A DNA stretch of 33,715 nt from Gemmatimonadota bacterium (lineage in GTDB: Bacteria > Gemmatimonadota > Gemmatimonadetes > Longimicrobiales > RSA9), in NCBI GenBank assembly GCA_007126035.1, contig SLCC01000085.1, forward strand, positions 1 to 33,715, in the 5' to 3' direction. The notes beneath the pieces are model-generated. The model worked only from the letters and a program-made list of their open reading frames with translations, was not told the DNA's origin and made no database searches. Made by a program: the position numbers and the translations under genes. This document shows, piece after piece, positions 1,195 through 9,560 of the stretch. Positions within the stretch are counted from its first letter, which is position 1; each line of letters opens with the position of its first letter.

Positions 1195-1297
1195 AGCGCC
1201 CGCGGCCTCAGCGGCCCCAGGATTGCGTAGGGAAGCCAAACTCGTAATGTTGTTTGCGCGCTGGAAGTATCCTCAGAACCCATTCGGAGGAGTAACC

Positions 1298-1516
1298 ATG
1301 CGATTGCCGGCTCTCGTTGTATTCGCCACCGTGCTGTTCATCACCGGATGCCCGGATCCAGAGCCCGAACCGGTGCCACCGCCTGACCCAGCCGTCGTTG
1401 ACACGCCGCCACCGGCACCGCCGCCGCCCGCGGTAGTGGACACGCCGCCACCGCCGGACACGCCGCCGCCGGATCCGGCGATGGACGACCCGGCCCAGCC
1501 GCAGCCGGAGTACTGA
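1298..1516 (+). CDS. Small Pro/Asp-rich lipoprotein (paralogue 1)
   Basis: This 72-residue protein starts at the ATG at 1298, behind GGAGGAG at 1286-1292. An in-frame upstream start at 1223 was rejected because it would bury the signal peptide. It has a classic lipoprotein signal: MRLPALVVFATVLFITGC, with lipobox ITG-C. The mature part is almost entirely Pro, Asp, Glu, Thr and Val, with repeats of the type VVDTPPPAPPPP and PDPEPEPVPPPDP. Such a chain is probably extended and may act as a spacer or periplasmic tether, but this is inference from composition only. The next gene (1633-1938) is a paralogue that shares the GCPDPE start of the mature protein and a VVDTPP motif. No homologous domain is recognised. 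Confidence 0.75.
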   Translation: MRLPALVVFATVLFITGCPDPEPEPVPPPDPAVVDTPPPAPPPPAVVDTPPPPDTPPPDPAMDDPAQPQPEY

Positions 1517-1632: not shown

Positions 1633-1938
1633 ATGAGATGGCAGGGCCTGGTAGTCCTTCTGTGCCTGGTCGTTCTGACGGGCTGTCCCGACCCGGAGCA
1701 TGAACCGGAGACCGACCCGCCCCACCCGCTGGTGGTGGACACGCCGCCAGGAGACACGATCCCGCTGGTGCCCGAGGAGGTGGACCCCCTCGCGCCCGGT
1801 CCCTCACGGGTCGATCCCGGCGTAGGAGAGGTGCTGCCGGCACCGCCCGACGACCCGGACACAGTCCCCGAAGCCTACCGTGGACCCGACGCCGAACCGG
1901 AGCCGGGCGCCGAACCGGAGCCGGGCGTCGACCCGTAG
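1633..1938 (+). CDS. Small Pro/acid-rich lipoprotein (paralogue 2)
   Basis: This 101-residue protein has the signal peptide MRWQGLVVLLCLVVLTGC, with lipobox LTG-C at residues 15-18. A GAGGAG at 1620-1625 serves as ribosome site. The mature chain begins PDPEHEPETDPP and is dominated by Pro, Asp, Glu and Val, ending with the tandem unit AEPEPG repeated twice (GAEPEPGAEPEPG). The start of the mature protein (CPDPE) and the later VVDTPP match the upstream lipoprotein, so the pair is most likely a tandem duplication that diverged in length. It has no folded domain that I can see. The next gene is an L,D-transpeptidase, so a role at the peptidoglycan/outer membrane interface is plausible but unproven. 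Confidence 0.75.
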   Translation: MRWQGLVVLLCLVVLTGCPDPEHEPETDPPHPLVVDTPPGDTIPLVPEEVDPLAPGPSRVDPGVGEVLPAPPDDPDTVPEAYRGPDAEPEPGAEPEPGVDP

Positions 1939-2020: not shown

Positions 2021-2716
2021 ATGAGTAGATTCGAGCTCCACATCCGCCGGCGTCACACCAGGGCGACGACGCCCCCTGCCCCGTGGCGGTCGGCCGGCGC
2101 GATTGGTGCCGTGGCCGGATTCCTGGTCCTGACCATTGCTCTCGTGGCCACGGCCGTGGCCGTGACCGGTGTCGACGCCCGAGCGGCCCCCGCCGGCCTC
2201 TCGTCCAGTGCGGCCGGCGGACCGACACCCGCCGACCAGGCCATGCGGCTGGAGATCAGCCTTTCCGAGCGCGAGTTGTACGAGTACGTGGGCGACGAAC
2301 TGGTCAACACCTATCCCGTGGCCGTCGGCCAGCCAGGTCACGAGACGCCCACCGGTCAGTGGGGGATCCACCAGGTGGACTGGAACCCGGACTGGATCCC
2401 GCCGGACAGCGACTGGGCGGAGGGCGAAGAGTACCGGCCGCCCGGTCATCCGGAGAACCCCATGGGCCGTGTCCGGATGATATATCGGCCGCCGTACAGC
2501 ATACATGGCACCGATGACCTGGAGTCGCTGGGTCGTGCCGCTTCCCACGGATCGTTGCGCATGGCCAATGATGACATCATGGATCTGGCTCGGCGAGTCA
2601 TGGAGCACGGCGGCGCCAGTCGATCGGAGGAGTGGTTCCAGGAGGTCAAGGCGGACCCTACCGACATGCGGGAAGTCCTGTTGCCGAACCCGGTGCCACT
2701 GGTCAACCGGCCATGA
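2021..2716 (+). CDS. YkuD-type L,D-transpeptidase domain protein with Ser at the catalytic Cys position
   Basis: The 231-residue protein has a basic N-terminus, one membrane segment at about residues 26-50, and a YkuD domain from about residue 75 to 190. Family hallmarks are LEISLSERELYEY at the start, TPTGQWGI in the middle, HGT at 162-164, and then the signature read here as SHGSLRM at 175-181. In YkuD enzymes this signature is SHGC-x-R/N, and the Cys is the nucleophile that cross-links peptidoglycan meso-DAP residues. Here codon 2552-2554 is TCG (Ser178). The His and Arg of the motif remain. The protein may thus be a Ser-variant enzyme, a non-catalytic peptidoglycan binder, or a recently inactivated copy. 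The start at 2021 lacks a clear ribosome site and follows the 1989-2016 dyad. It is topologically a periplasmic domain on a single anchor. Confidence 0.85.
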   Translation: MSRFELHIRRRHTRATTPPAPWRSAGAIGAVAGFLVLTIALVATAVAVTGVDARAAPAGLSSSAAGGPTPADQAMRLEISLSERELYEYVGDELVNTYPVAVGQPGHETPTGQWGIHQVDWNPDWIPPDSDWAEGEEYRPPGHPENPMGRVRMIYRPPYSIHGTDDLESLGRAASHGSLRMANDDIMDLARRVMEHGGASRSEEWFQEVKADPTDMREVLLPNPVPLVNRP

Positions 2717-2738: not shown

Positions 2739-3191
2739 ATGAGACCTGGGATCTATACGACGTTGATGCTTACGCTCGTGCCGTCGATGATGGCGTGTGC
2801 GGCAATGCCGGGGGCCGAGGGTCCGGCACCGGCCGACCCACTCCCGGGCGAGGCAGCGAGCGCGGACGCACGAGTCGTGGCGGTGGCTCTGGCCGCCAAC
2901 GGCGCGGCTGCCGAACTGGCCAACCTGGCCGTGAAGCGGGCCAGCCACCCTCTCGTGAGGGAGCTTGCCTGCCTGCTGGTGCACCAGCAGGAGGAGGCGG
3001 GGCAGGCGCTCCAGGACGCGTCCGAGCTAGCGGGTATGCCGGCGAGCCGCACCCCGGAAGCCGAGCGAGTGGAAGCCGAGTTGGATGCGGTCATGGTCGG
3101 ATTGCGGAGCCGGTGGGGCATGAGCTTCGACCGGGCATGGCTGAACGCCAACACTCGCCTGGGCGAATGGCTGTCGGGTCCGTCTGGATGA
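2739..3191 (+). CDS. DUF4142-like secreted helical protein, probably frameshifted at the 3' end
   Basis: The ATG at 2739 follows GGAAGGAG (2726-2733). The 150-residue product has a signal-type N-terminus with a possible lipid-attached Cys (SMMAC, Cys20), then a helical domain. The helix pattern ANGAAAELANLAVKRA-SHPLVRELA, followed by an FDRAWLNAN motif around residue 128, is that of DUF4142 (ferritin-like, usually periplasmic, of unknown role). The frame ends abruptly at TGA 3189-3191 after GEWLSGPSG. One base later in register, frame +1 reads on as RLDDATLAAVDDRHLRESLE and further helix-forming residues to a TGA at 3316-3318. That is where the missing C-terminal helix of the family should be. 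A single extra base near 3170-3180 explains this. The restored protein would be about 192 residues and would stop 12 bases before the convergent gene. Confidence 0.65.
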   Translation: MRPGIYTTLMLTLVPSMMACAAMPGAEGPAPADPLPGEAASADARVVAVALAANGAAAELANLAVKRASHPLVRELACLLVHQQEEAGQALQDASELAGMPASRTPEAERVEAELDAVMVGLRSRWGMSFDRAWLNANTRLGEWLSGPSG

Positions 3192-3330
3192 CGCGACCCT
3201 TGCTGCCGTTGACGACCGTCACCTGCGGGAGTCACTGGAACGTATTCGCGACGGCGCGGGCACCACGGCCCGTGACATGTCCTCCCTGGGGCCCAGCCTT
3301 GTGGGGTTCCACTACTGAGCATCAGGAGCG

Positions 3331-4193: not shown

Positions 4194-4355
4194 CGAGTTC
4201 CGAGTTCCGGGTTCAAGAGGCTGTCTGGCAAACCCGCAGGCTTCGAGGGTGGCACAATCTTCGAACAGCTTGACACGGAGGGCGCGGACGAGTCGGAGGA
4301 CGCGGAGACTCTCCGAGTTCCGAGTTCCGAGTTCCGAGTTCCGAGTTCCGAGTTC
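4194..4355. repeat. Composite tandem-repeat element (7-bp and 9-bp units)
   Basis: CGAGTTC (minus-strand reading GAACTCG) occurs twice at 4194-4207, plus one variant copy, CGGGTTC, at 4208-4214. It recurs as six perfect tandem copies at 4314-4355. Between the blocks, the minus strand of 4272-4307 carries four degenerate 9-mers of the form YTCCGNNNN or GTCCGNNNN (CTCCGCGTC, CTCCGACTC, GTCCGCGCC, CTCCGTGTC), followed by AAGCTGTTCG (4271-4262). The whole element is about 160 bp and sits in the gene-free region 4003-4434. Its translation on either strand is low-complexity, so I treat it as non-coding. Confidence 0.8.
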
Positions 4356-4434
4356 CCGCTGGCCAGGTCGGCCTGGGCGTCGTACGCTTCCGTAATGGTT
4401 CGAAACCCGAGCAGGCAGCCGGAGTGACGGACAA

Positions 4435-7125: not shown

Positions 7126-9480
7126 TCAGGGGGCGAGCGGGAAGATGAAGGGCAGTATCAGGACCACTATCAGCAGCACCAGCACGGTTAGTGGCACGCC
7201 GAGCCGCAGGTAGTCGGAATAGCGGTAGCCACCGGGTCCCATGACCAGAATGTTCACCGGATGTGACACCGGACTCGAGAGGCTGGCCGCCGACAGCGCC
7301 ACGCCCATCAGTAGCGAGTGGGGCGAGAGCCCCAGGTCGGCGGCTGTGGTCAGGGCTATGGGCGCCATGATGACTATGACGGCAGAGGAAGGGATCATCT
7401 GGACCGCAAGCGCGGTTATGAGGCAGAGCCCGGCCAGAACACCTCGCGGGCCCAGCTCGGCCGTCATGCCCAGGACTCCGTCCGAGATCAGCCGGGCCCC
7501 GCCGGACTGCTCCAGCGCGGTGCCCAGGGGGAGCATCCCGGCTATCAGGATGATGGACGGCCATTCGACCGCCCGGTAGGCCTCCTCGGGCTGGAGACAA
7601 CGCGACAGCACCATGGCGACGGCGCCCATTATCACGGCTACAGCGATGGGTATGAAGCCGAGAAGCACGGGCAGCAGCATCGCGGTCAGTATGGCCACCG
7701 ACACGGGTGCCTTGGCGGTGAGGGGCGGCTCCTGCACCGACTCGGTCAGCCCCAGGAAATTCGGCTCCCGGCCCAGCATCTTCAGACGATCCCGCGGGCC
7801 GAAGACGAGCAGGCCATCACCGAACTTCAGGGGCATGTCTCGCAGGTTGGATCGGTAGGACCTGTCACCGCGCCAGACCGCCACCACGCTGACCCCGTAC
7901 TTCTCCCGGAACCCGATCTCACGGGGTGTCCTGTCCACCAAGGTGGAGCGAGGCGCCAGGACCACCTCGAGCAGGCCAACCCGCTCGGACTCCAGCAGCT
8001 TCAGCGGCGCCTGACCCCGATCGATCTTCAGCCGCCGCAGGCCCCGGAGGATTTCCAGGTCAGCGGGGTGCGTCTTGATCAACAGGACGTCGTCGGCGTG
8101 AAAGACCTCGTCCGGGTCGGGGAGCAGGGCTGTCTTACCGTGGCGGATGATGGCCAGCACCGTGATTCCTGCCGCGTCTCCCACCCGTAGCTCCGCCAGG
8201 CTCCGCCCCACGAGCAGCGAGCGCTCCGTGACCCGAACGCTCAAAAGCCTCTCCTCGAGACGGAACCGGTGGAAGGCTTCGCCGGGACCGATTGGGCGCA
8301 CCTCATCGAACGACGGGGACGCTTGGAGGCCTTCAAGCTCCGCTGGGTGCCCCTGCAACAGGAGCACGTCGCCGGACCTGAGCGGGATCCGCTCCAGGTG
8401 GGTGCGCCGGACCGTGCCATCCCGCTCCAGCGCCAGCACGATGGCGCCATAGCGCTGACGGAACTCGAGCTGGAGCAGCGTGCTGCCCGCCAGCTCCGAA
8501 TCCGGAGCGATCCGGGCCTCCACCAGGCCCACATCTTCCGAGACCAGTCGCTCCGCCGCCGCCTTCTCCTCCTCGATGGCCAGATGCCGGCGGTTACGGA
8601 ACTCGTTGAGGAGGTCGGGCTGGCCCTGGACCACGAGGCGATCCCCTGCCTGCAGCACCGTGTCAGGAGACGGGGCCAGAGAGGTCTGCCCCTCCCGCAG
8701 GACCGCCAGCACGTGCAGACCCAGGGCGGAGCCCAGACGACTCTCGGCCAGCAGCTTACCCGCCAGAGGAGAGCGGGACGGGATCCGCACCGTGAACACG
8801 CGCTCGTGAAGATTGAAGGCCTTCACCAGGTCAGCGTCCGCGTTCCTGCCCACATCGCCCCGGGGGTCCCTGCTCGGCAGGACACGGATACCGATCAGCG
8901 CCACGAAAGCCACCCCCGACAGCAGGATCAGCGCGCCCGGCGGCGTGAAGTCCAGCAGCCGGAACGGGGCCAGGCCCCACTCGCTCAACGCCTCGCTGGC
9001 AAGGATGTTCGGCGGCGTGCCGATCAGGGTGGTCAGCCCACCCATGAGAGAGCCCAACGCCAGCGGCATCAGCAGTTTGGACGGCGCCCGCTCGGTCCGG
9101 CGGGCGATGTCCATGACCACCGGCAGCAGCATGGCGGCCACGCCGATGTTGTTCATCACCGAAGAGAGCACACCCGCCGTGAGCATGATCCCCACCACCA
9201 AAGGCGTCTCCCGCACGCCGACGACGCGCAGGAGATGCCGGCCCAACAGGCTGGCGACGCCGGTCCGGGCCAGCGCCGCGCTGATGACGAACATCCCGCC
9301 CACGGTGATGACCGCTGAGCTGCTGAACCCAGCGAAGGCCTGGGCAGGCGTGAGTATCCCCGTCACCGCCAGCAGCACCAGCACAAGGAGGGCGGTGATG
9401 TCCATTCGCAGAAGGCCCGTCACGAAGAGGGTGACGGCGCCGACGAGAATGGCGAAGACCAGGATGATTTCCGGGCTCAT
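7126..9480 (-). CDS. SLC13/DASS-type permease with four TrkA_C (RCK_C) domains
   Basis: The 784-residue protein starts at ATG 9480 (MSPEIILVFAIL); a GTG 21 bases upstream is possible, and neither has a clear ribosome site. The N-terminal half has membrane helices with SVMNNIGVAAMLLPV (about 107-121) and LIGTPPNILASEAL (about 152-165), typical of the ArsB/NhaD/SLC13 group. Residues about 225-570 form a large cytoplasmic insert with four TrkA_C-like units near 225-295, 315-385, 412-483 and 498-570. Each runs from a variable beta strand to a 'GD-x-L-L-V/L-x-G' ending (GDRLVVQG, GDVLLLQG, DDVLLIKT, GDGLLVFG). The C-terminal half has further helices with MIPSSAVIVIMAPIAL. The family moves anions such as sulfate or dicarboxylates with Na+. 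Homologues I know often have two TrkA_C units, so four is on the high side. TrkA_C domains usually bind ligands that gate transport. Confidence 0.9.
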   Translation of the reverse strand: MSPEIILVFAILVGAVTLFVTGLLRMDITALLVLVLLAVTGILTPAQAFAGFSSSAVITVGGMFVISAALARTGVASLLGRHLLRVVGVRETPLVVGIMLTAGVLSSVMNNIGVAAMLLPVVMDIARRTERAPSKLLMPLALGSLMGGLTTLIGTPPNILASEALSEWGLAPFRLLDFTPPGALILLSGVAFVALIGIRVLPSRDPRGDVGRNADADLVKAFNLHERVFTVRIPSRSPLAGKLLAESRLGSALGLHVLAVLREGQTSLAPSPDTVLQAGDRLVVQGQPDLLNEFRNRRHLAIEEEKAAAERLVSEDVGLVEARIAPDSELAGSTLLQLEFRQRYGAIVLALERDGTVRRTHLERIPLRSGDVLLLQGHPAELEGLQASPSFDEVRPIGPGEAFHRFRLEERLLSVRVTERSLLVGRSLAELRVGDAAGITVLAIIRHGKTALLPDPDEVFHADDVLLIKTHPADLEILRGLRRLKIDRGQAPLKLLESERVGLLEVVLAPRSTLVDRTPREIGFREKYGVSVVAVWRGDRSYRSNLRDMPLKFGDGLLVFGPRDRLKMLGREPNFLGLTESVQEPPLTAKAPVSVAILTAMLLPVLLGFIPIAVAVIMGAVAMVLSRCLQPEEAYRAVEWPSIILIAGMLPLGTALEQSGGARLISDGVLGMTAELGPRGVLAGLCLITALAVQMIPSSAVIVIMAPIALTTAADLGLSPHSLLMGVALSAASLSSPVSHPVNILVMGPGGYRYSDYLRLGVPLTVLVLLIVVLILPFIFPLAP

Positions 9481-9560
9481 GAGATGAGCGGGCACGAGCA
9501 CAGGCGGTGCCAGGTCGAAGCTGCTTCAATCGGAGCTGTAGCCCCGATCATCTGCGTCCG

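Follow-up and report, generated by a model that had tools for sequence, protein, structure and literature searches.

Locus and domain architecture

The window, a stretch of 33,715 nucleotides from a Gemmatimonadota bacterium (assembly GCA_007126035.1, contig SLCC01000085.1), carries a gene whose product matches the YkuD family (PF03734) with an E value of 5.6e-18 and a bit score of 66.4, where the cut-off is 23.4 (Table 1). This is the only Pfam match of the protein, and neither a penicillin-binding transpeptidase domain nor a beta-lactamase domain is present. L,D-transpeptidases are described as cysteine enzymes (PMC12729407; PMC11410929). The earlier note had read serine in place of the catalytic cysteine within an otherwise intact YkuD signature, spanning 2504-2572 from the His162 codon to just beyond Arg180, and this reading holds in the frame of the ORF: codon 178 is TCG, and His162, Ser175, His176, Gly177 and Arg180 are all in place, giving P-Y-S-I-H162-G-T-x10-S-H176-G-S178-L-R180. 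Compared with the canonical pattern (H-x-S/T-H-G-C), the protein has the histidine of HGT and the arginine after the nucleophile but lacks the cysteine. Relocation of the nucleophile to another cysteine is ruled out, because the protein contains no cysteine at all. Seven other YkuD matches were found in the same genome, five of them with a recognizable motif, and all five have cysteine.

Table 1. Features of the Ser-type YkuD gene and its surroundings in the window
Feature	Position	Strand	Basis
Small proline-rich lipoprotein-like ORF	1223-1516	+	
Second proline-rich lipoprotein-like ORF	1633-1938	+	
Short 18-bp tandem repeat in the second ORF	1890-1935		
Ser-type YkuD protein, 231 aa, no Cys	2021-2716	+	ORF, translation, Pfam
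N-terminal hydrophobic segment (signal peptide or membrane anchor)	2093-2164	+	Translation read by eye
YkuD domain	2246-2602	+	PF03734 match; AlphaFold2 pLDDT 94.1, pTM 0.89
Ser160, two residues before the catalytic His, same strand	2498-2500	+	Alignment, AlphaFold2 model
His162 of HGT, catalytic His position, invariant	2504-2506	+	Alignment
Ser175-His176-Gly177 of the SHG motif, invariant	2543-2551	+	Alignment
Ser178 (TCG), catalytic Cys position	2552-2554	+	Codon in ORF frame
Arg180, invariant	2558-2560	+	Alignment
C-terminal extension (...LPNPVPL...), common to near Cys-type relatives	2603-2713	+	Alignment
Small exported ORF, no Pfam match, seemingly shortened by a frame change	2741-3193	+	
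Continuation in another frame, similar helical, charged sequence	2741 to about 3319	+	
Perfect 7-bp tandem repeat (TCCGAGT), 6.4 copies, apparently intergenic	4312-4356		
Large permease, citrate-transporter domain and four TrkA_C domains	7126-9501	-	

A Foldseek search with the AlphaFold2 model returned Bacillus subtilis YkuD (1y7m_A) as the top match (E 2.9e-11, TM 0.59); YcbB and LdtMt structures were among the others, indicating that the YkuD fold is present. No solved structure of a Ser-type relative was found among the sequence matches.

The two small ORFs directly upstream of the gene resemble each other (GCPDPE..., VVDTPP...), and neither has a Pfam match. The frame change in the ORF just downstream seems to reflect a frameshift, present in the gene itself or introduced by the draft assembly.

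Distribution and ancestry of the Ser-type proteins

When 154 genomes of the same order were searched with the window protein as the query, homologues with serine were found in several genera, with identities of 63%, 53% and about 40-50%. Close relatives thus do not all carry cysteine, which is what the earlier note would have taken, along with read data, as a sign of an isolated mutation or a sequencing error. The nucleophile codon, read in the fetched loci, showed these Ser homologues occurring alongside Cys-type paralogues. A degenerate DNA pattern, HG[TS]-x5-[LI]G-x3-[ST]-H-G-Ser(TCN)-[LIVMF]-R, matches once in the window and in none of 100 shuffles; across 85,000 species genomes it identified 46 loci, for one motif spacing and TCN codons. 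All 46 belong to one subfamily, with the lid NPxWxPP...NP[LM]G and the signature P-[YRN]-[ST]-[IVL]-H-G-T...S-H-G-S. The hosts are Gemmatimonadota, Balneolota (Balneolales), Bacteroidota (many Sphingobacterium, Pontibacter diazotrophicus and a member of the Chitinophagales) and Alphaproteobacteria (Sphingomonadaceae, Erythrobacteraceae and a member of the Methylocystaceae), and several are cultured, type strains included. An AGY-codon version of the motif matched in 0 of 395 Gemmatimonadota genomes, compared with 20 of 395 for TCN.

Profile searches that were not conditioned on serine covered Sphingobacteriaceae, Balneolales, Sphingomonadales and one Gemmatimonadota family (f5), which by inference is Gemmatimonadaceae-like. 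The subfamily was present in 5 of 201 Sphingobacteriaceae genomes, with serine in every one; in Balneolales, 12 of 129 genomes had the Ser-type protein and one distant Cys-type protein was also found; and in Sphingomonadales the Ser type occurred in 1 of 249 genomes. Position 178 was either serine or cysteine throughout these searches, with no alanine, glycine or threonine. Together, the pattern and profile searches yielded 60 distinct Ser domains, of which 48 came from the searches that did not require serine, and the Ser178 codons are TCG (27), TCC (27), TCA (5) and TCT (1), with no AGY. The patchy host distribution suggests horizontal transfer and loss. Viral contigs contained no exact match to the pattern, and plasmids had only partial matches, below 60% identity and none spanning 80% of the query. 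Within family f5, a Cys-type group (L193, L195 and L196) has SKGC in place of SHGC, the same His-to-Lys change as in B. subtilis YkuD.

A careful maximum-likelihood analysis of 97 rows, in which columns 178 and 160 were masked, distant Cys proteins served as the root and one long-branch protein (L165) was left out, recovered all 46 Ser rows as a single clade with support of 100/98. The tree length within this clade is 12.6 substitutions per column. Repeated independent Cys-to-Ser changes were also considered and are unsupported, the masked tree requiring one change. The ratio of dN to dS within the clade has a median of 0.15 and lies at about 0.02-0.15 in most close pairs, with 0.147 for the window gene and its closest relative and 0.25-0.32 in three near-identical pairs; these values indicate that the gene is maintained under purifying selection. 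The monophyletic, invariant serine that the earlier note had proposed looking for among homologues was thus found, and the alignments and tree make it almost certain that the proteins form a conserved YkuD subfamily of single origin. Although the window contig belongs to a draft, many-contig assembly, the chance that the serine reflects sequencing error, an isolated mutation or gene decay is negligible and, for the clade, refuted by 60 distinct domains from four phyla, cultured isolates among them, in a single clade under purifying selection.

The excluded protein, L165, comes from a Balneolales-order genome (G765) and is of the Cys type, with an SYGC motif, arginine at -2 and a very long branch. 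In a quick tree it branched basally to the Ser clade, although its position is unsure: it may descend from an early lineage that still had cysteine, have reverted to cysteine, or owe its placement to its long branch.

Residues that differ along with position 178

The residue two positions before the catalytic histidine, residue 160, is serine or threonine in every Ser-type protein, whereas the sampled Cys-type proteins have Tyr, Phe, Leu, Gly, Ala, Arg or Asn and never Ser or Thr. The pairing of Ser178 with Ser/Thr160 has zero exceptions among all sampled YkuD proteins. The window protein shows both residues and falls within the single clade, the combination by which we propose to define the Ser type. 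Comparison of 54 Ser-type rows with the 44 nearest Cys-type rows revealed fixed differences at position 178 (S versus C), 160 (S,T versus Y,F), 154 (V,I versus F,Y) and 152 (Q,R versus K), and a nearly fixed one at 155, where the Ser type has tyrosine (rarely phenylalanine) and the near Cys type phenylalanine. Relative to these Cys-type proteins, the Ser clade has also lost one residue just ahead of the catalytic strand by deletion. His162, Thr164, Ser175, His176, Gly177 and Arg180 are retained across the clade in the alignment, and no conserved acidic residue that could complete a Ser-His-Asp triad was found in it. The AlphaFold2 model places residues 160 and 162 two apart on one strand, and 178 just ahead of the next. 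Two residues so spaced would lie on the same face, and strand alternation therefore suggests that residue 160 faces the active site.

The nearest relatives outside the clade are Gemmatimonadota Cys-type proteins (for example, L012, L041 and L039), which have about 40-54% identity and the same C-terminal extension and in some genomes sit beside Ser paralogues. They differ in having Cys178, Tyr/Phe160, Lys152, Phe154, Phe155 and, ahead of the catalytic strand, one additional residue. B. subtilis YkuD (1y7m), Escherichia coli LdtA-E and LdtMt2 share the fold, the HGT...SHGxxR signature, the lid motif and the domain order with the clade, which departs from them in its serine nucleophile position, the Ser/Thr at -2 from the histidine and the altered strand before it. 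We found no published natural Ser YkuD clade in the open-access literature, most subscription papers being outside the search.

A crude scan detected a lipobox-like motif in 41 of the 60 Ser-type members; others, the window protein included, have a hydrophobic N terminus instead. These N termini and lipoboxes suggest that the Ser-type protein is probably exported and stays anchored to the cell envelope. No conserved operon or partner gene was found apart from local synteny among Balneolales, with ORF calling in the GC-rich loci being crude. The flanking genes in different hosts are unrelated to each other, and the Ser-type gene thus stands alone. Balneolales carriers number 12, several of them draft genomes, and in each one the Ser-type protein is the sole PF03734 protein and YkuD_2 is absent; in these hosts it is therefore no helper of a Cys enzyme of the PF03734 or YkuD_2 families.

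Possible catalysis by Ser178 and alternative functions

Of the three options that the earlier note had listed, decay has dropped out, and a serine nucleophile and a protein that only binds peptidoglycan both remain, the sequence not choosing between them; the members of the Ser clade are either enzymes that work with serine or relatives that bind the cell wall. Why acyl-transfer enzymes use serine or cysteine is stated to be not understood (PMC6391942). A working enzyme is favoured by the co-fixed package of active-site changes and by the fact that Balneolales carriers have no second YkuD protein, whereas the dead engineered Cys-to-Ser mutants and the missing conserved acid call for caution on catalysis. 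On these grounds, we give about even chances to Ser178 being the working nucleophile of a YkuD enzyme. Our best explanation, also finely balanced, is a natural Ser-nucleophile branch of YkuD, in which one ancestral Cys-to-Ser switch was accompanied by compensating changes and which, across four phyla, would hydrolyse or transfer peptidoglycan through an oxygen ester.

In the mechanism that we propose, the cleft typical of YkuD proteins would probably hold the peptidoglycan stem peptide. His162 would activate Ser178, which, aided by the new hydroxyl of Ser/Thr160, would attack the L,D amide bond to form an oxygen-ester acyl-enzyme. An oxygen ester is resolved by water, as opposed to an amine, more readily than a thioester is. 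Because the ester favours water in this way, the likely outcome would be trimming, by L,D-carboxypeptidase or endopeptidase activity, rather than 3-3 cross-linking; this last step, drawn from general chemistry, is the least certain. Subtilisin S221C acquires transpeptidase activity (PMC6391942) and, by the reverse logic, a change from cysteine to serine should favour hydrolysis. We consider hydrolysis more likely than cross-linking for the Ser-type proteins. Hydrolases with the YkuD fold are known, namely the L,D-carboxypeptidase ElsL (PMC8649774) and the amidase DpaA/YafK (PMC10653827), which hydrolyse rather than cross-link, although both are Cys-dependent and their sequences are not close to the Ser clade; ElsL C138S is non-functional (PMC8649774).

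The main rival is a pseudoenzyme: the domain would bind peptidoglycan, or a stem peptide that has been modified, but catalyse nothing, and its role would be that of an anchor or sensor in the envelope, with the serine keeping the shape of the cleft and a hydrogen bond. LdtMt2 C354S gave no product from natural muropeptides and was not acylated by beta-lactams (PMC11410929, PMC6391942), yet it was co-crystallized with a substrate (PMC11410929); with the missing acid, and with the many lipoprotein-like members that would suit an anchor, this makes the binding role a tenable, if tentative, reading. Against it, Ser178 has not drifted to Ala, Gly or Thr over 60 domains, both histidines and the arginine are retained, the changes around the nucleophile resemble re-tuning rather than relaxation, and Balneolales carriers have no YkuD protein besides this one. 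LdtMt2 C354S and Ldtfm C442S (2hkl) have serine at exactly the same position but were made in the laboratory and lack the co-changes of the natural clade. A natural clade that switched once, kept serine and reveals which residues changed with it offers a direct test of what serine needs on the YkuD scaffold.

If Ser178 is catalytic, its acyl-enzyme might instead be passed to an amine, forming 3-3 cross-links or attaching lipoproteins to peptidoglycan. The overall architecture is of the LdtA/B/C/E type (the best NCBIfam match of the window protein is LdtE, E 1.1e-12, far under the cut-off of that model), the lid NPxWxPP...NPLG is retained, and penicillin-binding proteins transpeptidate with a serine nucleophile. 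We nevertheless regard a working transpeptidase as unlikely, as oxygen esters are less prone to aminolysis than thioesters and no partner gene or substrate protein was found to recur beside the gene. The confidence in this reading and in the next overlaps in part with that in Ser178 as the nucleophile, both being forms of serine catalysis.

Ser-dependent turnover of beta-lactams by a YkuD-fold protein has been published for Legionella Lpg1514, a YafK protein (PMC13400389), and the Ser-type proteins might likewise bind or hydrolyse beta-lactams. The active residue of Lpg1514 is Ser132, which lies outside the Cys position, and its canonical Cys174 is retained though dispensable (PMC13400389), whereas the window protein has its serine at the Cys position and no cysteine; no resistance context surrounds the Ser-type genes, and we consider this role improbable. 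The clade also bears on beta-lactam chemistry, since an ester adduct does not behave like a thioester adduct. It matters for automatic annotation too, which assigns Ser-type proteins to the L,D-transpeptidase catalytic domain of Pfam.
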